NCBI GenBank assembly: GCA_002205965.3
Contig: NADL03000481.1
Location: forward strand, 1,426,001-1,490,000
Length of the DNA stretch: 64,000 bases
From: Kappaphycus alvarezii
Lineage: Eukaryota > Rhodophyta > Florideophyceae > Gigartinales > Solieriaceae
Direction of reading: 5' to 3'
Shown here piece by piece: positions 12,733-26,104 of the stretch (position 1 is the stretch's first letter; the number at the start of each line of letters is the position of its first letter). The notes beneath the pieces were generated by a model, which saw only the letters and a program-made list of their open reading frames with translations, was not told the DNA's origin and ran no database searches. The translations under genes and the position numbers were made by a program.

Positions 12733-14104
12733 ATGCCCGGGAGTGGGTACGAGACGTTGTTACGGGAGGTATGCGCGCGTGTGACGTGCGAGGGGTGGAT
12801 GTTTTCATACCTGTTCACAAGCGACGTACAGTCGGAGATATCTTTATTGACGAGTGGTCATTGCGGCAAGCACACGGTGTTGATCCGGGAGATGCGTCGT
12901 GCGGTGGAGACGTCACGTGGACATGCGCAGATGTTGGACCATGTGACGGAGCGTGGTTCGTTGTGTGTGCCTGCGTTTGCACTGGATGGGGTGACGGCGG
13001 GATTGTGGGTGCATGAGGGGAGTTGCCGGAGGGTTTGGCCTGGGGGTGTGAGGGGGTGGGTGCATTTTTCAAAGTTTGTGCGGTTTGAAGGGGAGGGGGT
13101 GTTGATAGAGGTTCGGGATGTGGCTGGGGGGTGTATGGAGATTGTGTATTGTGTTGTAAAGGGGGGAGACGAAAGTCGGAGACGAGGTTGATGTTTTCGT
13201 GCGGGGCGGGGGAGGTCAAGGTGGGGGGAATGTGGGGATTTCTGCGGGGGAGGTTGATGCAGGTGAGTAAGACGGAGTTGTGGAGACAATGTGTGGTGTG
13301 TGGGGTTAGAATGGGGGGTGTGTGTCGGTGTGGAGTGAGGGGGGTGGCGGGAAGGCATTTGCTGGATTTTGCGGGACATGCGGAGAATGCGGGAGTGTTT
13401 GTGGGGGAATATAGTGGCGGAGGGGGGTGGAGATGCTGAGAGATGGGGTGCAAGCGCTTTGTGCAGGTCTGGAGTGTGAGGAGAGGGGATACGTGGTTTG
13501 TGGGGGGGAGGAAGTGCGGGGGCTGAGACAAAGGGCGATTCGGAAGAGGTTGGGGTGTTATAGGGTGTCGCCTGGTGGAGGTGTGGTAGTGGAGGGTGCG
13601 GGGGAGGAGTGTGAGCGGATTGCGGATTTGTTGGCGAGGGGAAGGGAGGAGGAGGAGGACGAGCAAGGGAATGGGGAGAAGGAGGAAAGGGATGGGGTAG
13701 GAAGAAAGGAGAAGAATCGGATGGCAGCGGCAAAGTCGAATTTGAAGAGAAAGTGGCGGAATAAGAGACTGAGATTAAATGTGGTCATGTTAAGGCTGAG
13801 GGTGGCCGAGCTGAGGGAGGTGGAAAGTGAGTTGCGGTGTGAGCAGATGTGGTTGCGGGAGAGGTGTCGAGTGGAATTGGGCGGCGAGACGGGCGAGGCG
13901 GGCGAGGCGGGCGAGGCGGGCGAGACGGATGAGACGGGGGGATGGACAGGACGGGCGAGCACGTGTTGCCGGCAGGATGATGAGATGATGAGAGCGCATG
14001 ACGACAAGCCGTTGGTGTATCATTGGGTGCCATGCAACAAAGTATTCATGGTTATGTGGAAGTTGGGATTGGTGGCCAATCGCAATGTTTCGCATGGCCA
14101 CTGA
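12733..14104 (+). CDS. bZIP paralogue 1 with N-terminal CxxC/CxC domain, two frame breaks
   Basis: Predicted nuclear DNA-binding protein. The N-terminal domain (from YETLLREVC, about 12745) aligns to paralogue 2 and ends in a putative zinc site CVVCG...CRCG near 13290-13330. A linker with acidic GEAGEAGETDE repeats and the bZIP follow. In the basic region (13715-13760, NRMAAAKSNLKRK) N stands where nearly all bZIPs have R. Leucines fall at +18, +25, +32, +39 and +46 from the basic-region asparagine, a full five-heptad zipper. The frame changes by -1 at two G6 runs (13161-13166 and 13432-13437). One extra G at each joins the parts with homology continuing. The N-terminus is uncertain: the upstream C-rich part has other open frames from 12426, and 12733 is the first ATG in the homologous frame. 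The stop is followed at once by AATAAA. Confidence 0.75.
13881..13940 (+). repeat. Nine-base tandem repeat in bZIP1
   Basis: About four GGCGAGGCG-type units encoding Gly-Glu-Ala triplets just after the leucine zipper. Confidence 0.85.
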
Positions 14105-14108
14105 ATCA

Positions 14109-14114
14109 AATAAA
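14109..14114 (+). terminator. Polyadenylation signal of bZIP1
   Basis: AATAAA lies four bases after the bZIP1 stop codon. It is placed very close to the stop, consistent with compact genes, but no cleavage site can be seen. Confidence 0.45.
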
Positions 14115-14274
14115 GCGAAACACTTTTGGCATGTCAAAATAGCATATATTCATCCAATCATCGTCGCAAACTTGTCTCTCCCTTTCTCGTCTCCTCTGGC
14201 AACTCTTTGTCTTTGTCATTGTCATTGTCATTTGTCGTGTCTCTCCTGACCAGACTCTTATCCATTCATGCTCA

Positions 14275-14370
14275 CGAGACAGTCCCAGTCCCAGTCCCAG
14301 TCCCAGTCCCAGTCCCAGTCCCACTTCCGGTCCAAGTCCAAGTCCAAGTCCAAGTCCAAGTCCCAGTCCC
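14275..14370 (+). repeat. Hexamer tandem array before bZIP2
   Basis: About seven CCCAGT units, a short break, then about five CCAAGT units and a return to CCCAGT. It lies in the likely 5' leader of bZIP2. If translated it would give Pro-Val or Ser-Gln/Ser-Lys dipeptide repeats depending on frame. Confidence 0.9.
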
Positions 14371-14401
14371 GCCACAACTGTCTTGTCATCCCTCTTTCAA
14401 C

Positions 14402-17304
14402 ATGCCACAACAAAATAACTCTCCTCCCAATACCAACCCACAAAATACACTCCTCCACCCAACCCCCAACCCCCTCCCCTTCTTCCAATCTTATCATCAC
14501 CCATCACCTCCTATCACCCTCCATCCTTCTCAAACCATGCTCCCCGATCCATCCCTTCTCGAACGAGTCTTCTCCGTCCTCAAACACAACTGGGTCTACA
14601 ATTTCTTCTTCTCCTCTCAACCAGACGAACTCGAACAACTCCGCCATGCCGTCACCAAGTCCTCAGTCACCACCGCCGAATTCAACTTAAAAACACTCTC
14701 CCCTTTCAACCAAACCTTTCAAGTCAACGAGCACCACCGCATCCTAGTAATCCCCTCCTTTTGCACCTCCAACATTACCGTCGGATTCGCCGTCTGCGAA
14801 AAAATCGCCTCCTCCTCCCACGTCGTATCCCGTGACGTCTACATCGGACGCATAGCCCGCGACGACCAAAACGGCACCTGTCTCTTCATAGCCCAGGACT
14901 TTAACGACCACATCACAGAGGTCACCTACTTTTCCCTCCACTCCCCATCCCACCGCGACCACATCTTCTCCCTCTACAGAACAAAGCCTTTTACCCGTGT
15001 CATGACCTCCCTCCCCCGCCATTACAACCCCGCCGCCCTGCTCCCAGCCCTTATATACCATTATTGCGCCACCGATGCTCGCCCGTGTCCGCACTGTGGC
15101 ACCTCGCTTGCAAACTCCCTGCTTCCCTGTCCGTGCAAGCTTCCCATCCGTCCCAAGCGTCACCCGGATGACACCGAGCGTGACATGATTAACCTTCGTT
15201 CCTACATGGGTGGTTATCATGGTGTTGCCACTGTCGGTCTGTATTCCCGTGGCAAGACCCTCTTTCATGCAAACTATGCCGCCACCAGCGGCTCTCGTCT
15301 AACCATTGACCCCGAGTCCCATCGCCGTTTGGTCCTGTGGGCCTTGTGTTCAACTACTCGCAAGCGTCCTATCAACCCGCTCGCGTTTTGTATGGCAAAG
15401 GGTGTTCTTGGAACAAAGGGCATCTCCGCCACCGACACCTTTCTGCTCGCCTCTATTGCCGATTCCGTCGTTGACGACGCTAAACATCCCAACAACTCCT
15501 CGTCACACAGTACCACCCGCTCGAGGACAACCTCATCTACTCTGGCCCTCCCTGACATTTCCGACCTTGACAACTCCAATCCCGACGACTCTTCCTCCGA
15601 CCGTCCCCCGACCAACGCCCCTCCGATGCAAAGCCTACCGACTCTATGTCCCTTATCTCAAAGCCACGCTCCATTTTCTCAACCCCCTCCTTTTCCGACT
15701 CATCTTCCCCGCCCTCCAATCCACACTCGTCCAATGCTTCTCTTGTTGATGACGCCCACCCGCTCGCTCGGTTACTGCACAAAGTACCCCCCATGTGCCC
15801 TATCGACGCCACCGCCTGTCCCATTGCACCCCCGTTTTGCCCGATTGTCGCCCCGGTCCTCGTCCCGCCGGTTCACCACGCAACCTCCGCCTCACACCAA
15901 GATCCATCCTCCGCTACCGACCACCCTCAACAGTCGCACTCTACTAACCAACAAACCACAGCACCAACATCAGAAGCTCCTACTTTGCAACCTGCGTCTA
16001 CTACATCCGACCCGTCATCAACACCACAAGACACTTCTTCCCCGCAGGCTACACTACCGCAACCAGCCCCCCTGCAACCCTCCGCCGCATCGCAGGGTCT
16101 ATCTCATTCCCGTGGTGCATCCGAGTCTCATCGTCCCCAACTACCGCCTCTCAAGCCCCGTTGCCCGCCCCCTGCTCCTGCCAAGCCATCGATCCCTACG
16201 CCCCCCGAAGCACCTCCTGCCACTCAGGATGACCCTCTACCGTCCAACTCGACATCCCAATGCACCGTCGCCCCAAAACCAGCCGTTCATCGCCCGGTCA
16301 CAACCCCGCACCGTTCATCACCCCGCCCATCCACACAGCCGCAGACTCTCGCCTGCCACCGCAAACCCTCCAACCCCCGATCCCGCTGCACGCTCCCACC
16401 CGCCTTCACCACACGTCTCTACCCGCCCATCCGTCGCCAGCCGCACCGGTGGCATATCAGGGACAAGTAACGCTGGCTGCTGCATCACCTGCCGCCAATC
16501 CAAGCATGGTGCCACGTCGCGCTGTTCCATTGGGCCCCCGATGAACCCACAAGCCATGTCGTCGCATGCAGCATCTTTGCATGCACGACCGTCTTCGTCG
16601 CTGCAGCCGCATCATGTGATCGCAATGCCGCCGCAGGGCCGACCATTGGTCACGCATCAGGGGATGCGGCCGCTGGCACCACAACAGGCGACAGCAATGC
16701 CGCTGCAGACACATGGGACGTTGCCGTCGCACCAGCCGGCGCGTTTGCAGCCACAGCATGTGCCGCCGTTGCAAGCGCAGCCTTCCGCGCCATATCAGCG
16801 CGGGCAAGGAAGTGTGTCACAAACGCTGAGTGGTATGTCGCGGCCTTTAAGTGGCATGTCGTATCCGAGTACGTTGCAAACTGCGGGTGATATGCGAGGA
16901 TCGTCGGTACATTCAATGAGCGAAATGCGGGGTAGTAGTTCATGCTATTCGGATGGGCGGGGGGGAGCGAGGCGTCTTTGGAAAAGGTGAGGCCGTTGCG
17001 CCCTGCTCCGCTGCAACCGAGGTATATTTTGCCGATGCAAACGGCCGAGAGTGGGACTGTGGGGGGTAGAGTGAGCAAGACTGTAGGGGATGAGCTGGAC
17101 GAGAGGAGACGCAAGGCAGAGCTGAGAAAGGCACGTAATCGAGAGAGTGCGCAGAGGAGTAACCACAGGAGAAAGATGAGGATACAGGCACTGAAAGACG
17201 ACATTGCGGCAGCCGCAAAGCGCGAAATGATCCTCAGGGCAAAGGAGAAGATGCTGAGGGAAGAAAATTCAACCCTAAGAAGAACAGTGAGGAACGATTG
17301 CTAG
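14402..17304 (+). CDS. bZIP paralogue 2 with N-terminal CxxC/CxC domain, four frame breaks
   Basis: Putative transcription factor of about 960 residues. I chose the ATG at 14402 because it follows the hexamer array and precedes the conserved domain (LLERVFSVLKHNWVYNFFF at about 14560). An upstream ATG at 14126 would translate the array. The domain includes RDVYIGRIARDDQNGTC and a putative zinc site RPCPHCGTSLANSLLPCPC near 15090-15140, then a second conserved block (SYMGGYHGVATV). A long Ser/Pro/Gln/His-rich middle resembles activation domains. The C-terminal bZIP (17130-17300) has NRESAQRSNHRRK, again N for the usual R, with zipper positions L, A, L, L, L. The frame steps -1 four times (near 15618, near 16260, at C5 16535-16539 and at G7 16959-16965). 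Each is repaired by one extra base. It is tandem with paralogue 1. Confidence 0.78.
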
Positions 17305-18251
17305 CTGGAATGACATAAAGTACGGAGCAACTATTTCACTTAATTTGTAAAGGGCCTTCTTGGGTCTTCAATGTTTACGCCATTGCAATGACTGCTGGTT
17401 CGGCACAACCGACGGCTAATGCATGTGAATTCATGGTGCTGAATAGTTTTAGAGACAGAGGGAATTTTGCCTCACGATTCATTGTGAAAGTTATTACCAC
17501 GCATCCACCAGGAGACCAACTCTTTCGCGCAGCTTATTTCCCACTTGCTGCTACGGCGCAGTGGTTCAGCAGCAGCCATGGCCATACGTTACCACCGAAA
17601 CGAGCATCAACCACAAACGTCACCGCAGGCAGCAGCTTTGGTTTGCATGCTGCGTGCCGAAAATGCACTCAGGCGGCTTTCTGGTTGCGACGCAAGGAAA
17701 TTCGCAGCCGAACATGGCTGCTTTCAGGGGTGGCCGCAATTTGCCACTCGCGACAACTCGTTTGCCTCCAAATCTACTACACTCAATCGATTCCTTCAGG
17801 AGCGAAAGAAGACTCCATGTTAATTTACAAACGGATCACGGGGTCCAAACCCAGCTCGTCCAGCTTTATGAATGGATAAGCGCAACGAGAAGCAAGTATG
17901 TACACTGTTACACTGTTTGCGTCGCTGGCGTTGGTGTCTGTCAGCGGAAATGTACATACAGACAGCATATGTGCAGAATCAGTCTCTGAAAATTTAGATA
18001 AGGGAGTCGGTGATAGTGTCTTGTTTCTGCATAAAGTCATGGTGCTGTCAGTGAAATGAACGGTGCTTTGGTGCACTCTCTCATTGCGTTAGTAGTTCAT
18101 CGTGCTGTTCCTTCTAATGCGGGTAAGGAAAACAAAGAACGGTAAAACATTGGATAGGGACATAACACATCATAAGGGGAGCGCATCAGAAACCAAAATG
18201 GGCTTATTCAAGGATACAGCGGGGAGTCGCGCAGCACGTTCATTTTGCCCC
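17305..18251. other. Spacer between convergent bZIP2 and bZIP3
   Basis: Several overlapping open frames of 90-160 codons (17388-17989, + strand) are present but none matches a family I know, and no frame is favoured by composition. It most likely holds the two 3' untranslated regions. A small lineage-specific gene cannot be excluded. Confidence 0.35.
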
Positions 18252-20394
18252 CTACTGGCTCATTTCGATGCGACGCCTCAGCTCAAAATTCTCTTCCCTC
18301 AGGACACGCTCCTGTTCGCGGAGTTCAGCGATACGCACATTTCCCTGCTTGATCTCCGCCTTGAATGCGTCCATAACGCTTTTCTTCCTTGCATTTGACC
18401 GCGCAGCCGCTTGCCGATTCTTCTTGCGGCGTTCTTCTGCTTTTCGCTCCTTTTCCACTGCTTCCAGGTGTGCCGCAATGGCATAAGCATTTCCCATTTG
18501 CCATATAAACCCGTCTGCACATGCACTCATGCCTGCTGGACGCGGTGCCAACCGCGCCCCTCGGGAGCCCAGATTTGGTTTTACATCTGGCACATCTTTG
18601 AAGTCCGCCAGCAGAACCTCTTCCTTCTTTGGGATCGTTATTGGGGTCGTAATCGGCGCCGCAGCGGGCCTCTCATTCGCCGGCATCGGAACAGGCTGCG
18701 CGGCAGCTGGTTGCAGATGCATCCCTTGAACAACTGGGCCAGAAAACGGCCGAGCTGCATGCTCACTACTGCGGCGACTTTGTTCTGCCTCCATGTCCAT
18801 AAATTTCGGCATCTCGCGCCTCTTGTTAGGTTCTTGATGCAACGTTTGCGAATTGTGAGCGTGTTCCGGAAACGTGGACTCCGCTGGCTGTGCAAACACT
18901 TTGTTCTGAAACAACGCTTGGACGGCCGCGACTTGTGCATCCGACGTGGACGGCGTCGCCGCACTCATCGAGCGCTGCGGGTTTACGTCATCCGTGTCAT
19001 GCGTAAATGCCGTTTCCTGTGACGGAACGGTGCCATCCGAGCCTGCAGACGCGCTCGACGTAACATCAATGTTCTTGTCATTCGAAATAAACGAGCACCA
19101 GTCCTCCTCGAGATCCATTCCATCCATACAGAGGTCAGTGCCGCCGGGTAACGTGCTGGGATCAGCAGGCATTATAGCGCTCTCGAGAACGTGAAAGTCA
19201 TATTTGGAATCCGGAAACAAATTATCAGTAAGGAGAACATCAGCAGCGACAGGCTTTGTAATCTCCTCAAAAAAGTCCTCACTGGAACTGGTGGTGAGTG
19301 AGCCATCCGCGTTGGGATCACCCTGGAGACCCCCCCAAACGCCGGGTTTGAACGGCTGGCGGCAGCGCAGGTTCAATCCGCGGAACGGCGGGTGACACAG
19401 TGACCGGCGGAGCGGCAATAGGGGTGGGTATAACAGTGGCAGTATTCGCAGTCTCGAAAATAGCCAGACGCTGCATATCGGCGGCAAGGGCCGAGTCCAA
19501 ACTGGGCTGATAGCTCGCTCTGACATCCATACATTCATCAATATCGACAAGATTATTGCGCGACGAGCTACTGATGACAGTAACGCGAACCTTTCCCACC
19601 CAACGACTGCGCCCCTCCCTGGCGACCGTCTCTGCGACAGCGGCGAGCCCCTTTGACACGGTAGCCACGGCCGGCTGAACTGCACATGCGCAGGTGACAC
19701 TTGGAGGGGCGCCGCAAAACGGACAGGGTCTCCATTCCTGATCGTGACACTGAAACAAGACCGAGGCGAGAAAGTGACCGGCGTCAAACAGGTCGGAGGA
19801 ACAGGTGAGACAGATACGCTCCCGTGTAACGAGCTTGTTGACGCGAATGTACTGCAGACGAATGATACCATCGCGTGGATTGCGGGTGAGGATGCACCAC
19901 TCGCCGGTATGATTATCGCGTACATAACGGCCAACTCGGACATCGGCCATAACGGTAGGAGCGTGTAACGGATGGGTCCTATCGGTGTAGGAGGTGACGA
20001 CAGCACCACCCGAAAGACCAGCACAGTCGGAAAAGGCCGGGATACCGAGATATCTTAGGGCGATTCTGCCGGGGAGTGCGCCGTGTTGTTCCTCCTCGGT
20101 GAAGATGGTGAAGGAGGGACGCGGGGTGGTGAGAAGGGCGACATCGTGAGAGGTGGAGGAGGCGTCGAGCATAAAGTCACGGACGGTTGGATGACGTTGC
20201 AAGAGTTGAAAGGCCTTGTGTAGATCATGTTCTACAAAGGCGGGGCGTGGAGGATGGGGAATGGTAATGTGGCGGGGGGCGTGATTGACGCCAGCTGCAT
20301 GGGTGCATACGGAGGGATGGGGATGTGGGGTGGAAATGATGAATTGGGGGGGGGGGGGTGGGGTGGGGGTGTGTGAGGACACGGCGGGCCGCAA
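18252..20394 (-). CDS. bZIP paralogue 3 with N-terminal CxxC/CxC domain, one frame break
   Basis: Putative transcription factor of about 700 residues on the - strand, convergent with paralogue 2. The N-terminal half (20394 to about 19330) carries the shared domain: ADVRVGRYVRDNHTGEWC and the putative zinc site RPCPFCGAPPSVTCAC near 19690-19735, then a WVGKVRVTVISSSS block. The second half, in another frame, is acidic and Ser/Thr-rich and ends in the bZIP (NRQAAARSNARKK; zipper F, G, L, L, L, ending LREENFELRRRIEMSQ). N replaces the usual basic-region R. The break is at a C7 run on the + strand (19330-19336). One base less or two more restores the frame and joins to LQGDPNADGSL. The start at 20394 is the first ATG in frame. 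The upstream proline-rich stretch is open in other frames, so the true start could lie further out. Confidence 0.8.
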
Positions 20395-21182
20395 GATGGA
20401 GTGCGGGGGGGGATTGTGGTGGGGAGGTGGGAGTGAGGAGTAAGTGTTTGTTGGTAGATTGTCGGGTAGATATTTTTGTAATAATGGTTTGGGTGGTTTT
20501 GGTTGGTTGGTATGTGTATTATGTTTTGAGAGGGGGGAAGGATTGGGGGAGGTGGGAAGAAAGGGGACGGGGAAGGGGACGGGGAGTCGTTTGGGTGGAA
20601 ACGAGTGGATGGCGGAGATGGCGGAAGGTGTTTAGTTGTTTTGTGTAACAAAGGACAAAGCAGGTGAGAGCTTTAGTTTGATACAGGATAAGCGGGGCGG
20701 AAAATTCTAGGCACAATTGGGGAGCGCTTTGAATTAGGGCTAGGTCAATTTGTTCTGTAAATGATATGCAAGTGGTCACTATATGACTGTATTTATCCTA
20801 CAGTAAACTCAACATGCTGTACTCAACCGACTCAACAACCAATGCTTGTCAACAGCATGGCGCATGACTGTACTGTACAGTACAGTACAGTACAAGACTG
20901 TAAAGGCCAGCTCAGCACAAGATACAAACAACCCAACCAATTGCCGTCAACGACATGTCAACAAAACCCCAATCCAATCCCACCCTTTCCACAAAATACA
21001 CTGTAAGCATTTCTTCATTACACCTTCCACATCATGTATGTCAACAACTATGTTGACAAAACCAATGCCATCCTCATCCGACCCCTCCTCCCCCGCCCCG
21101 CCGATCACCGCCACCCCTTCCCCCCCCCAACCATCGCATCCCAAACTTTCATCCCCTTCCCCACCCCATCCTCACCCTCCAA
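20395..21182. other. Divergent promoter region between bZIP3 and glycosyltransferase
   Basis: Shared upstream DNA of two divergently transcribed genes. The left part is G-rich on the + strand (C-rich leader of bZIP3) and the right part C-rich (leader of the glycosyltransferase). A GTAC palindrome cluster sits midway. No TATA box that I trust. Confidence 0.5.
20865..20905. repeat. GTAC palindrome cluster 2
   Basis: GACTGTACTGTACAGTACAG and further CAGTACAGTAC units lie between the divergent bZIP3 and glycosyltransferase genes. Confidence 0.85.
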
Positions 21183-23191
21183 ATGCCCGCCATGCAAACC
21201 ACAACCCGTCGTTTCTCCCCCTCCATAAAACCCACCTCAACACTCTCCACCTCCCTCCACCGCCTCGTCCTAACCAAACGCCGCACCTCTCTCCAACTCC
21301 TCGCCCTCCTCTTCCTCCTCCCCCTTCTCCTCCTCCTCTCCATAAACCGTCACACCCCACCCCCCCCATCCCCCTCCCCCCATCCCCGCCCCCCAAAACA
21401 CCCGCCAACCTCACCGCCGTCGCACTCGTCGCCCTCTCACCCCTCGATCTCCAACACCTCCCCACCACCTTATTGTCCATCCGTCAACAAGCCCCCGATC
21501 TTCCCGTCACTATTTACCATTCCATTCACACCGCATCCGTCGCCCATCAACTCGCATCTCATCATTCCGACGTTTCCGCCCAACCAATCTCTCACACCCG
21601 ACCGTATCACGCCGTCTTGACCCCGCTTTCGCTACACCCCTCGGCAAATACATTGTACCTCCTTGCGGGCACCGAGTTGGCCCCGCGTGCCTTGGAGTGG
21701 TTGGCCCTTGCACGTGCAAAGTATATGGGACGCTCGGATATCGCCGCGTTTTTTCTGGATGGTGTTGCTGTCAGGGTCAGGCTTGCAAGTGATGCACCCG
21801 ATCATGACAAGGCGTCTGGCGTCGTGAGAAGCATGCTGGCGGTCATGCAATCTTGTATCAGCTTTGTGTCGGTGGAGCCGCCTTTGTGCCCAATTGGGGG
21901 CCGCATTTGCATGTTTGGGACACGTTTGCGGAGTGGTTGAGGGTTCGTAGGGCGGATTGGTATCGTTATCCTGGTGGTTTGGGGTGGATGGTACGCCGTT
22001 GGGAATGGCTGCTTTGGTCGAGAGGAATTGGACGAGGGCCGCTTGGAATGTCTGGTTTTCCAAGTTTATGGCAGAGTACAAGTTGTATGCCGTCTATTCG
22101 GGGAGACGTTGGCGGTCCACCCGAGGTTGCAGTTGGGGAGGGATATGGCCTTGGGGGAGTTGTATCAGGGGAATGATACCTTTGTCGTAGAGAGTGATGT
22201 GCAGTCGTTTCATGGCGATGGCTCGGTGGCAAGGCCCCCAAAATTTTCGAGTCTGTCGGAGATTGTCGATTTGGGCAGGCGTCAAGGGGGGATTATTAGT
22301 TTTACGATGGTGAACAAGGTCTTTTTAGATACGGCTAGGAGTTGGCTGTGTAATGTTGATGGTGGAGGATTTAGACCAAAGGGGCTGGTTTGGGCGGTTA
22401 CTGATGTTGAGACGAGGGATGCCCTAAAGGGTATTGAGGGGACAGAGGTTGTCATGCTGGATGAGGTGCATGGGGGTAAGGAAACGGGACACGAGTTTGG
22501 GAATCCGGGTTACTGGAAGTTGATGTTGGAGCGAACAGAGCTGATAGGGGAGATTTTGCGCAATGGTATCGCCGTTTTTGCTTTTGAGACGGACGCGATT
22601 TGGTTGGAGGACCCCGCGCCCTACATTGAGCAGCTCGTCCAGCAGGATGCTGACATCGTGGGTACGATTAACACGAGAACAGAGGTGTCGGGCAACTTTT
22701 TCTATCTGAGACCGACGCTAGCGACGAGAAGAATGTGGGATGAGATCATTAGTGAGTTTGACAAGGCGTACAATGGGGCCCATTTTGAAAAGAAGGAAGC
22801 GACGAGTTGGACGTACATCGAAAACGACCAAAGCCAACTGACAAAACTGGTGCTGCGGAATGAAACGTGGAGGAGAAGCTATCCCTTGAGCTTTTTGACT
22901 TTGGATATGGAACTTTTTACGGATGGGCGATGGTACAGTCCAGAGGAAGGATTTTACACGAGCGAGAGAGCGAGAAAGCCTGTGGTTATCAATAATAACT
23001 TTGTTATAGGCGTGGATGTGAAAACAGAGAGGGCCAAGAAATGGGGCCACTGGTTTTGGGACGAGAAGGAGCAAAAGTGCCTGGATGGTGTCGTGAAAAA
23101 AGCTGTTAGGAAGCAGACGAGCGGGTTGGACTTTGCTTTGTATCCAGACGGACACGACGGTGCATATGGACCGAGAGGAGGATCTTCGTAG
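21183..23191 (+). CDS. Type II membrane glycosyltransferase (Nucleotid_trans-like), four frame breaks
   Basis: Likely Golgi enzyme transferring a sugar from a nucleotide donor. The ATG at 21183 gives a short basic cytosolic tail and one membrane anchor (LQLLALLFLLPLLLLLSI, residues about 37-54), then a proline-rich stem. A first lumenal domain begins NLTAVALVALSPLDLQHL. The C-terminal domain (about 22140-23190) has the features of PF03407-type transferases: FTMVNKVFLDTARSWLCN, a metal/nucleotide motif FAFETDAIWLEDP in place of DxD, DIVGTINTRTEVSGNFFYLR, and VVINNNFVIGV near the end. The frame steps -1 in the C runs at about 21354-21410, near 21840, near 21990 and at G4 22100-22103 (giving SGETLAVHPRL). 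A role in cell-wall or glycoprotein sugars is an inference. The acceptor and donor are unknown. Confidence 0.75.
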
Positions 23192-25278
23192 GGCAAGATT
23201 TTGGGGACGTGAATATGAATTGTTTCGCTGAATAGGTGAATGCATGTTGTAGACGATCGCCGCTCGGAAACTAACTTGATGGGACTAACCCGGGCAGTGT
23301 AGGCGATTTTGTGCACAGACTCTCATCGCATTGAACAATATGTAGCAGAAAGGTTAAAGCGGGCTTTTGCAGTTTTTTGTCAGGGCCCCATTCCCCCTTG
23401 GCCACCGTACACAGGCAGCTTAGCAACACTGTCTCCCGCGGATGAATGAATGGCGGTCTCCGCGCTCGGCGTGCAGCGGCCGGCACCATGCACTCCCTCT
23501 GCCAACCTCAACACTTGATACCGACTCGTGCGGGAGCGCTGGAGTAGTGTATTGTACAGTGTGAGGCATCTGTTGGTGTACTGTACGCTGCCGTTGGGTT
23601 GGGCCGGCCACGTGTATGCGGGCGTGTAGTGCAGAATCGGCTAGATGGGGTTGGTATGATTCAATGCAGCGGGGGGGGCAGAAACGTGATGCATGGGCAT
23701 TTTATAGTCGGTGAGTCGGTGCGCGCTTTGGATAAGGAGTGAATAGGTCTGTGTAAGTCTTGCTGGTGGGAAAGGGATTTTCGATTTTCGATTTTCGATG
23801 GAAATCAAAACGTCGGTGAAAGGTGTCGTGGATTTTTGGTTGTACAGTAGAGTAGTGTGGAACATGGTGGGTGATGGAGGAATTGGTGGAGTTTCAAAGC
23901 TAGTCTCTTTTTTGATAGCATGTTTCATAACAGGGGATTGCGGTGGAGCATTGCAAGGATGAATGCCAGCTAGATAGGTAGGAGTCTATTTGTCTTGGAC
24001 GCGTTGTTGTTTGGTTTGGGGTTTGGGATGGAACAGCAGCTGGGCTCTATGGCACAAGTTTTGTTTAGAGTGACTCTGTGCAAAATACCGTACAATACTG
24101 TAATTCTTCAGTACAGTACTGTAAATAACTGTCCAAGGGATGAGTTGTCGTCATTGACAGACGTTGCACGAAACACAGCAAATCTGAATTACATTTTGGA
24201 TATGCGCCGTGGTGCGCCGTGACTGGCAAGGAAGCTGAGAATGGCTGGAGCGACGCACTTTTCGTGAGAAACGCATGGAGGATACAGTCTGTACTGTACA
24301 GTCCTGTGCCAGGTCAACGATGACGCATTGGACATCGGTCCATGGAGTAGCATTTTTATGGCACGTTGTCGTATTGGATGGAGCGTTTGCATGCTGTGGA
24401 AATTGAAAGCTTTGTGCAAAGATGCCACTTGGAAACGTCGATTGCTTTGTTGGGAGAGCCAAAGCGACATCTATCAGCCACTTGCTCTCTCTCGCTACTA
24501 GCTATCTACCTCGTCTTTACAATGAGCCTTTAAAGAGAACCGCTCGTCTATGTTCCTTCTCTCTAGCGCCACTCCATTTGTCTACCGAACCTACTAGACT
24601 AGTAGAGACGGACTCCCCTTCATCATTAACGCTACCGCCAGCAAAACGAGCCAACATGTAAATCATGCTGCTCCGCCTTGCCATCAATCTCCATTGCCTA
24701 TTATTGTCACCAACAACATTCCGATTCCTAATTCCTTGCCACATACTACCATCCTAATTCCACTGCGCTATCCCTCATCAACGCCTCTCATGCAAAATTC
24801 ACACTTGCCATGACATCACCCACACGTTTCTTATTGGAACAACCATGACACATGTCGTAAAAACTACACTTGTCAGCATCTATCGTCTCTGCTCATCCGT
24901 CTGTGCCCAAACATCCCGCACATCTTTTTCACTTGCCAACTTTGTTTACAGTTTCTCAAATGCTGCAAAGTGCCTCCTAGCTACCGTAGCGTCATTTCAT
25001 TCATTTCATTCAATCGCCACCTATTCTTCAACCCTATACCACGTACAGTACAACCTAACAGTGCAATTCAATTTCAATACAACGCGATACATTCCTTGCT
25101 CATACCTCAAATACTTGCATGCACACCACTCTGTTCCCAACAAGCGCCCCCTACATTCCGAGTTAGGCTATGTGCAAATCAACCGATCTTTCGTGCCACC
25201 CCCAACCGAAATCCCCCGTCCCTTGCCCCCGTGTTAGAAACCATGTCTTCATTTTCCAACTCGCCTCCCCTCCCCCCC
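23192..25278. other. Intergenic DNA with scattered GTAC palindromes
   Basis: No recognisable gene. GTAC palindromes occur near 23558-23590, 23845, 24085-24130, 24283-24300 and 25040. A GATTTTC octamer-like repeat lies at 23778-23800. The open frame at 24845-25237 has no recognised domain and probably overlaps the 3' region of bZIP4. Confidence 0.45.
24085..24130. repeat. GTAC palindrome cluster 3
   Basis: Includes CCGTACAATACTGTAATTC and CAGTACAGTACTGTAAATA, same family as the other clusters. Confidence 0.8.
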
Positions 25279-26104
25279 TTACTTTCTCTCCTGCCCCGCC
25301 TGCCTCACATTCACGTTTGCATACGGAAAGCACCTCACTTGCTGAAACGTATCCACTGGAATGAGCGGAAGTCGCTGCCCGGAAAGATACACCAGAGCGC
25401 GAAGGCATTTGTTCTGCCTGCGCAAATCCAACTCCCTCATCCGCAGTTGCCTCTCCATCCCCTGCAACCAAGCCAGCTCCGTTTTCCGCGCCTCCTTTTG
25501 CTGCTTCTTCTTAATATTACTACGATGTGCAGCAGCCCTGTTCCTCTCCCTTCGTAAAAGCTCCTTGAAATCAAACTCCCGTTCCTCCAAATAATCCGCC
25601 GTTAAAATATCCCTAAAGTTTGAATTCGCCTCCCCAAACGTCTTTCCACCGGGAACCGTCACACAAAAGTCAAAGTCCACTGGCTCGTACACCTGCGACT
25701 CACTCTGCTGCCGTGGATTGTTGACGACGTCTGCCGAGGCGGTGAGAAAGCCCGGCCTGCTGTTGCAAGGTCATCCCATTTGGAATCCTGACTGCTGTCG
25801 GCATCTGAATCGGGCTGTTCGGGGACCAGTGGGGGTAGGCATCCCGGGAGGCACTGGGTACCGCTGGTGACGGGGTGAGTGCAATGGGAAGGGCCGGGTT
25901 AAAGTTGTGGGACGGGGAAAAGACGGGGTTTACGCATTGGAGTTGGGGGTGCAGGGAATTGGGAGGGAAGAGGGAAGCGGGGCGATAGTCGGGAACGGGA
26001 GTTGATTTCAACATGAGTGGAGTTGAGGATGGGGCGGAGGTGTGTGGGGTGTGGTTCATCACGATATCCGGCGCGGTCCGGATCTTTTTCTTCTCCGATA
26101 CCAA
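25279..26104 (-). CDS. bZIP paralogue 4, short form without the CxxC/CxC domain
   Basis: Putative transcription factor of about 270 residues. The N-terminal half (26104-25700) is Ser/Pro/Asn-rich with no zinc motif. The second half, in another frame, has an acidic stretch then the bZIP (NRAAAHRSNIKKK, N for the usual R). Leucines lie at +25, +32, +39 and +46 from the basic-region asparagine, with a non-leucine residue in the first heptad. The frame break lies near 25720-25735, where the natural sequence continues ADVVNNPRQQSESQVYEP. No long base run marks it, so a small intron or real indel is possible here. The start could be 26104 or the ATG at 26059. The short tail after the zipper is extra compared with its paralogues. 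It is separated from the other three by the glycosyltransferase. Confidence 0.75.

Follow-up and report, generated by a model that had tools for sequence, protein, structure and literature searches.

A clade of red-algal bZIP domains with asparagine in place of a conserved basic-region arginine in Kappaphycus alvarezii

Introduction

In several eukaryotic lineages, bZIP transcription factors have been reported in which one of two otherwise invariant basic-region residues, Asn235 or Arg243 (GCN4 numbering is used throughout), is replaced. Here, we describe a replacement of Arg243 by Asn in four bZIP domains of the red alga Kappaphycus alvarezii and in their relatives elsewhere in the genome. 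The four domains are encoded in a 64,000-nucleotide stretch of DNA (the window), which corresponds to positions 1426001-1490000 of contig NADL03000481.1 (C477 below) in an assembly of 336,021,096 bases and 884 contigs.

The closest described systems come from land plants. In plant group I, which includes VIP1 and bZIP29, the same arginine (position −10) is replaced group-wide, and a CAGCTG-type or AGCTGK-type element is bound; unlike in the alga, the replacing residue is Lys (PMC5066499). In plant group U (OsZIP-2a), the same arginine is replaced by Ile in nine members from six legumes, with maize, barley, grapevine, and castor bean also cited; here the new residue is hydrophobic, and G-boxes are reportedly not recognised (PMC4676100). 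Position 243 is one at which specificity differs in other lineages, and the two plant precedents point in different directions. Lineage-specific expansions with a changed invariant residue are also described in the oomycete Phytophthora sojae (classes C-R, R-R, and V-R), and the oomycete N-R/K/Y class includes Tyr at the arginine position, as does the algal domain L032 (see below); in contrast to the domains described here, mainly Asn235 is changed in oomycetes, and the accessible text names no class with Asn for Arg (PMC4046829).

Broader surveys, as far as their available sections go, do not list this substitution. Among 896 bZIPs from 49 genomes, Chondrus and Galdieria included, the differences given at the two positions are a Giardia Gly, a plant Lys, and an oomycete Cys only (PMC4736632). 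Scattered plant Ile and Trp residues at these positions, legume exceptions among them (PMC4676100), and exceptions in a fungus (PMC7409085) are on record, none of them given in those sections as Asn for Arg. A basic-region Asn is known from yeast Yap8, where Asn31, together with Leu26, narrows site choice (PMC3865217). We considered it as the same substitution and rejected it as lying at the wrong position: it corresponds to Arg79 of Yap1, five residues after the conserved Asn (Yap1 Asn74) and not eight (PMC3865217).

In red algae, most bZIPs fall outside the Arabidopsis groups (PMC11533322). A 2024 survey of Neopyropia yezoensis gives an "invariable N-X7-R/N motif", i.e., Asn as an alternative at the position studied here; in the portion of the paper at hand this is a single clause, which does not specify which of the 23 proteins are meant and neither sets the Asn type apart nor interprets it (PMC11533322). 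The original prediction for the window, that no family with this substitution had been described, therefore has to be narrowed: the variant was already in print, neither named nor interpreted there. The corresponding text of a Neoporphyra haitanensis survey gives N-X7-R only (PMC10696790). For PhbZIP2 of Pyropia haitanensis, three DNA affinity purification sequencing motifs are reported, none of which is a palindromic bZIP site and one of which can end in ACGT; the part of the report available does not state whether the protein is of the Asn or Arg type (PMC11056619). No paper pairing "N-X7-N" with bZIP was found in the open-licence literature.

Results

The window was scanned in six frames with the basic-region pattern N[RN]x[AS][AVQ]xx[SC]x. 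There were four matches and no others, and every one of them had Asn at the place of GCN4 R243, as had been predicted. Domain 1 (NRMAAAKSN at 13715) occupies 13667-13870 on the plus strand, with the Asn243 codon AAT at 13739-13741, in an open frame of 229 codons (13415-14101). Domain 2 (NRESAQRSN at 17137) occupies 17089-17292, also on the plus strand, with an AAC codon at 17161-17163 and an open frame of 121 codons (16939-17301). The other two domains are on the minus strand. Domain 3 (NRQAAARSN at 18419; 18264-18467; AAT at 18393-18395) lies at the C terminus of an open frame of 600 codons, which spans 18252-20054 including the stop, while domain 4 (NRAAAHRSN at 25542; 25387-25590; AAT at 25516-25518) lies in an open frame of 163 codons (25282-25770). 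When the four domains were aligned, the columns N21, R22, A25, S28, and N29 were the same in all. The zipper register, expected to have hydrophobic residues at +18, +25, +32, +39, and +46, was only partly borne out: positions +32, +39, and +46 were Leu in all four domains, while +18 and +25 were mixed (F/G at 18419, L/A at 17137, and R/L at 25542).

A genome census was then made at position 243. Matches to Pfam bZIP_1 and bZIP_2 were found at 37 and 79 places (thresholds 0.001 and 1), corresponding to 85 distinct places, of which 84 were read; the exception, C784:72449, is probably the second copy of C813:674753, the scores of the two being equal. Profiles built in this analysis were then used to search the loci and the window again. 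After near-identical copies had been collapsed by eye and two frame-shift artefacts and one broken copy excluded, 49 distinct domains remained, with residue 243 being Arg in 25, Asn in 21, and Lys (L071), Tyr (L032), and Leu (L010) in one each. Since two of the window domains, those at 13715 and 25542, were unmatched in the genome-wide Pfam searches, the figure of 21 Asn domains is a lower bound. Asn235 was present in all 21 Asn domains and in all 49 rows of the set used for trees. The Ile characteristic of plant group U was seen at position 243 in none of the 49 rows, and the Lys of plant group I only in L071 and its copy L082. A Cys in place of Asn235 was likewise absent from the 49 rows, a class that could escape search profiles made of N235 domains.

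The relationships among the 49 domains were analysed in trees computed without column 243, over 67 columns. In the full-set tree, in which the zipper insertion of L077 was aligned, a single branch (83/94, not starred) set apart the Lys row, the Tyr row, and every Asn row except L050 (20 of 21). The same 22 rows, referred to below as the clade, stayed together (78/78, not starred) in a reduced tree from which 11 long Arg rows had been removed and to which human JUN and ATF2 had been added. This group, defined without reference to position 243, has 20 Asn, one Lys, and one Tyr at the position where the N-x7-R/K criterion has Arg or Lys, while Arg is found in 25 of the 27 rows outside it, the other two being L010 (Leu) and L050 (Asn). 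The Asn label required four changes on the full-set tree, compared to a mean of 16.1 after shuffling, and none of 500 shuffles gave a number as low. An earlier tree required six changes; it had placed L077 among the Arg rows on a branch of length 10 because the one-residue insertion in its zipper was left unaligned, and it was replaced.

Constraining the complete set of 21 Asn rows, along with L071 (Lys) and L032 (Tyr), to a single clade gave an approximately unbiased test p-value of 0.0425 with the full set, a marginal rejection, and of 0.428 with the reduced set. With moderate support, the trees are most simply read as showing one origin of Asn; Lys and Tyr would then have arisen from within the clade, and L050 (NRELARVSN) may have acquired Asn separately. 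The original prediction had taken the shared Asn of four divergent paralogues as an argument for selection. The residue is real, shared, and constrained, but the evidence of constraint comes from substitution rates (see below) rather than from the sharing, which most simply reflects one inherited change in a clade of about 22 paralogues; four independent parallel changes were dropped as an explanation, given that 20 of the 21 Asn rows cluster.

Several of the unusual domains were read in two copies. L050 (C671) and L051 (C754), which have their Asn codons at 1667 and 1628 on the minus strand, read NRELARVSNERRK and have Asn at 243, and they group with Arg-type rows in one tree. L010 (C163, 1620, minus strand) and L028 (C160, 1534, plus strand) read NRESAMKSLQKKK, with Leu at the Arg243 position, and otherwise group with Arg-type rows. 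Inside the Asn clade, Tyr is found at 243 in L032 (C630) and L033 (C805; NRESARRSYLRSK) and Lys in L071 (C521) and L082 (C42; NRASALRSKRKKK), the copies agreeing in each case. Both L077 (C513) and L078 (C627), which are copies of an Asn-type domain, carry one inserted residue and have Pro in mid-zipper.

Comparison of second copies allowed the constraint on the Asn-type domains to be estimated. Contig C6 carries a second copy of the window region, an allele or homoeologous copy, in blocks that are 76-95% identical and collinear except for one block; the blocks holding the four domains are 88-95% identical. Asn is retained in all four C6 domains, and silent differences are present in each of the four, which argues that Asn is no error, as the original prediction had held. 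In the genome as a whole, 14 copy pairs were compared (12 Asn, one Tyr, and one Lys). Residue 243 was identical on both sides in all 14, and all 12 Asn pairs were Asn/Asn, one of them with a silent AAT/AAC change. Counting second copies, 33 sequences encode Asn243 with 17 AAT and 16 AAC codons. The ratio of replacement to silent substitution rates (dN/dS), pooled over residues 225-278 of 11 of the 12 Asn pairs (the frame-shifted pair L045/L034 and the Tyr and Lys pairs were left out), was 0.073 (bootstrap 0.038-0.114). Between residues 233 and 247, these pairs showed seven silent changes and no replacements. The parts of these open frames that precede the domain gave dN/dS values from 0 to more than 1, partly as they may be noncoding. 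Two second copies are damaged. L034 (C635, 1515-1516) is frame-shifted in the zipper with respect to L045 (C119), which reflects either an error or a broken allele, and the C6 copy (L047, 8405-8406) of L056a on C477 (L056, 1835) is interrupted in the basic region, its coding sequence being split between two frames.

The clade has a characteristic pattern in both parts of the domain (in these column counts, L050 is not included and L077 is included only as far as its insertion). In the basic region, N235, R236, A239, and S242 never vary among the 22 rows, K247 is present in 20, and Asn243 in 20. In the zipper, every one of the 21 letters is Leu at both 267 and 281, and 19 are Leu at 274; the Leu is weaker at 253 (12/22) and 260 (10/22). 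Asn at a264, seen in 14 of 25 Arg-type rows, is mostly replaced by V, E, or I in the clade, which is marked by Glu at a271 and Asn at a278 (each 19 of 21 letters) and by Arg at e275 (19), e268 (17), and e282 (17, with Lys in the others). A crude charge count, which ignores a-g' and intrahelical pairs, gave a mean of −2.45 for clade homodimers (n = 22) vs. 0.56 for Arg-type homodimers (n = 25), and means of −1.29 for clade-clade pairs (n = 231) and 0.16 for clade-Arg pairs (n = 550). L077 came out as the best or equal-best partner of 18 among the 21 remaining clade rows; its score hinges on an alignment gap, and its zipper contains Pro. We regard the charge count as no more than a lead on which partners are chosen.

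A profile built from the 21 Asn-type domains matched chains of ATF-2, Jun, ATF-4, C/EBP beta, and Fos with solved structures (best E-value 3.1e-6), with ATF-2 and Jun matched at 3e-6. An AlphaFold2 model of domain 1, made from the four-row alignment, was a single uninterrupted helix over residues 2-74, with a mean predicted local distance difference test score of 93. A Foldseek search of the PDB with this model gave no match, one helix being an uninformative query. As would be expected of a eukaryotic gene, one Asn-type domain had no relatives among phage records, viral contigs, or the genomes of prokaryotes. Judged by profile match and predicted fold, the window domains appear to be genuine bZIPs, though they fall below the Pfam cut-off. 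In single-domain scans, the gathering score of PF00170 or PF07716 was reached by eight of the 21 Asn domains (0/4, 6/10, and 2/7 by batch), with none of the four window domains among them, compared to 20 of 25 Arg domains scanned as a control (10/10, 9/10, and 1/5). Because Asn domains pass less often than Arg domains, surveys probably undercount Asn-type bZIPs, and the result suggests that Pfam-threshold counts of red-algal bZIPs are too low. Existing bZIP profiles have been described as insufficiently sensitive for algae (PMC8304369).

Besides the four genes in the window, C477 carries four Asn-type genes at 1266-1277 kb (loci L055 and L056), about 160 kb upstream. The nearest neighbours in the tree were L055b for window domain 1 (99/83) and L056b for domain 4 (96/81), both forks being starred. 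With domains 1 and 4 pairing with upstream genes, the idea that the four window genes are copies of one another was unsupported; the pairing suggests that the two clusters may go back to one small cluster duplicated long ago. A blastn comparison of the window with loci L055, L056, and L047 detected no similarity at an E-value of 1e-10. Another local cluster, with two Asn-type genes, is present on C813 (674.9-678.7 kb; L042). Two other open frames lie between the window domains: one of 958 codons (14114-16987, plus strand), without a Pfam match at an E-value of 0.001, between the first and second, and one of 416 codons (21941-23188, plus strand) with a nucleotide-diphospho-sugar transferase domain (PF03407, E-value 5e-17) between the third and fourth.

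Discussion

The reading we prefer, to which we give a probability of roughly 0.57, is that the members of the clade (at least 20 with Asn, one with Lys, and one with Tyr) share one ancestral change of Arg243 to Asn and a re-patterned zipper, most likely bind as dimers, and read an altered site centre. The dimers would most likely still bind DNA through the retained N235, A239, S242, and K247. With the loss of the long Arg side chain near the site centre, the innermost base pair or the spacing that is read would differ from those of TGACTCA/TGACGTCA; a shorter Asn among otherwise retained basic-region residues would thus change the reading of the centre. We favour this altered recognition over the two alternatives that follow since the other contacts are retained throughout, and the altered half-site recognition put forward in the original prediction is a reasonable expectation. 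The residue, its clustering in the trees, and the constraint are established here, whereas DNA binding, altered specificity, and a distinct set of dimer partners are inferred.

Several observations weigh against this reading. No binding data for any protein of established Asn type were found among open-licence papers. When regions upstream of 20 clade genes were compared to those of 24 Arg-type genes, none of the 64 six-base palindromes tested was over-represented after correction (best p = 0.008). The branch that defines the clade, drawn from 67 columns, was starred in neither tree. Over a wider domain of up to 68 residues, dN/dS of the same 11 pairs ranged from 0 to 0.36 per pair, and the domain of the frame-shifted pair L045/L034 gave 0.89. 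In maize opaque-2, an arginine that we take to be the same as R243 has been changed. As cited in PMC4046829, opaque-2 no longer bound specifically after this Arg-to-Lys change, and the Asn-type proteins may thus likewise have lost binding.

Asn-type proteins might instead be regulatory partners, binding poorly alone and acting by dimerising with Arg-type bZIPs, whose sites they would change or block. Ile at this position is reported to cost GCN4 its affinity for AP1 sites, and G-boxes are not recognised by OsZIP-2a (PMC4676100). The conserved Arg at e268, e275, and e282 and Glu at a271, together with a charge count that disfavours clade homodimers and prefers clade-Arg to clade-clade pairs, fit such a role. 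However, invariant basic-region contacts in all 22 rows and the lack of any replacement between residues 233 and 247 in 11 pairs would be needless in a partner that does not bind DNA, and the charge count both omits the pairs noted above and takes its top partner, L077, from an alignment gap. On balance, we consider this explanation unlikely.

A similarly low standing is given to the possibility that Asn is merely a tolerated ancestral replacement, with the proteins using ordinary bZIP sites at somewhat lower affinity and residue 243 playing no role in specificity. The retained basic-region contacts would suit it, and changing the basic-region Asn of Yap8 to the Arg of Yap1 alone left site choice unchanged (PMC3865217); the residue concerned lies elsewhere, at +5 relative to the conserved Asn. 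A tolerated residue should, however, vary among paralogues, and Asn is kept in 20 of 22 clade rows even though the Asn rows are just 29-51% identical to window domain 2; outside the clade, Arg occupies the position in 25 of 27 rows.

Sequencing error, misassembly, or decaying pseudogenes, which the two damaged second copies might bring to mind, are hardly credible as a source of Asn that is retained in all 12 Asn pairs, encoded by both AAT and AAC, and embedded in domains with a dN/dS of 0.073 in 11 of these pairs.

Altered recognition of the site centre by a red-algal bZIP class would be our best reading of these domains, which belong to a large and constrained bZIP class, probably specific to the lineage, that had already surfaced in print. 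More tentatively, and with considerable doubt, they may form a red-algal subfamily, enlarged partly by local duplication, comprising 22 of the 49 bZIPs and largely unseen by Pfam counts, in which the single Arg-to-Asn change and the zipper with Glu a271, Asn a278, and Arg e268/e275/e282 would constitute a separate code of DNA recognition and dimerisation, directed to a site that no known bZIP prefers. R243 belongs to the pair of residues most conserved across a eukaryote-wide family of transcription factors. A constrained clade with Asn in its place is a natural experiment on replacing a fixed DNA-contact residue, and about twenty related domains are available for measuring the new site.

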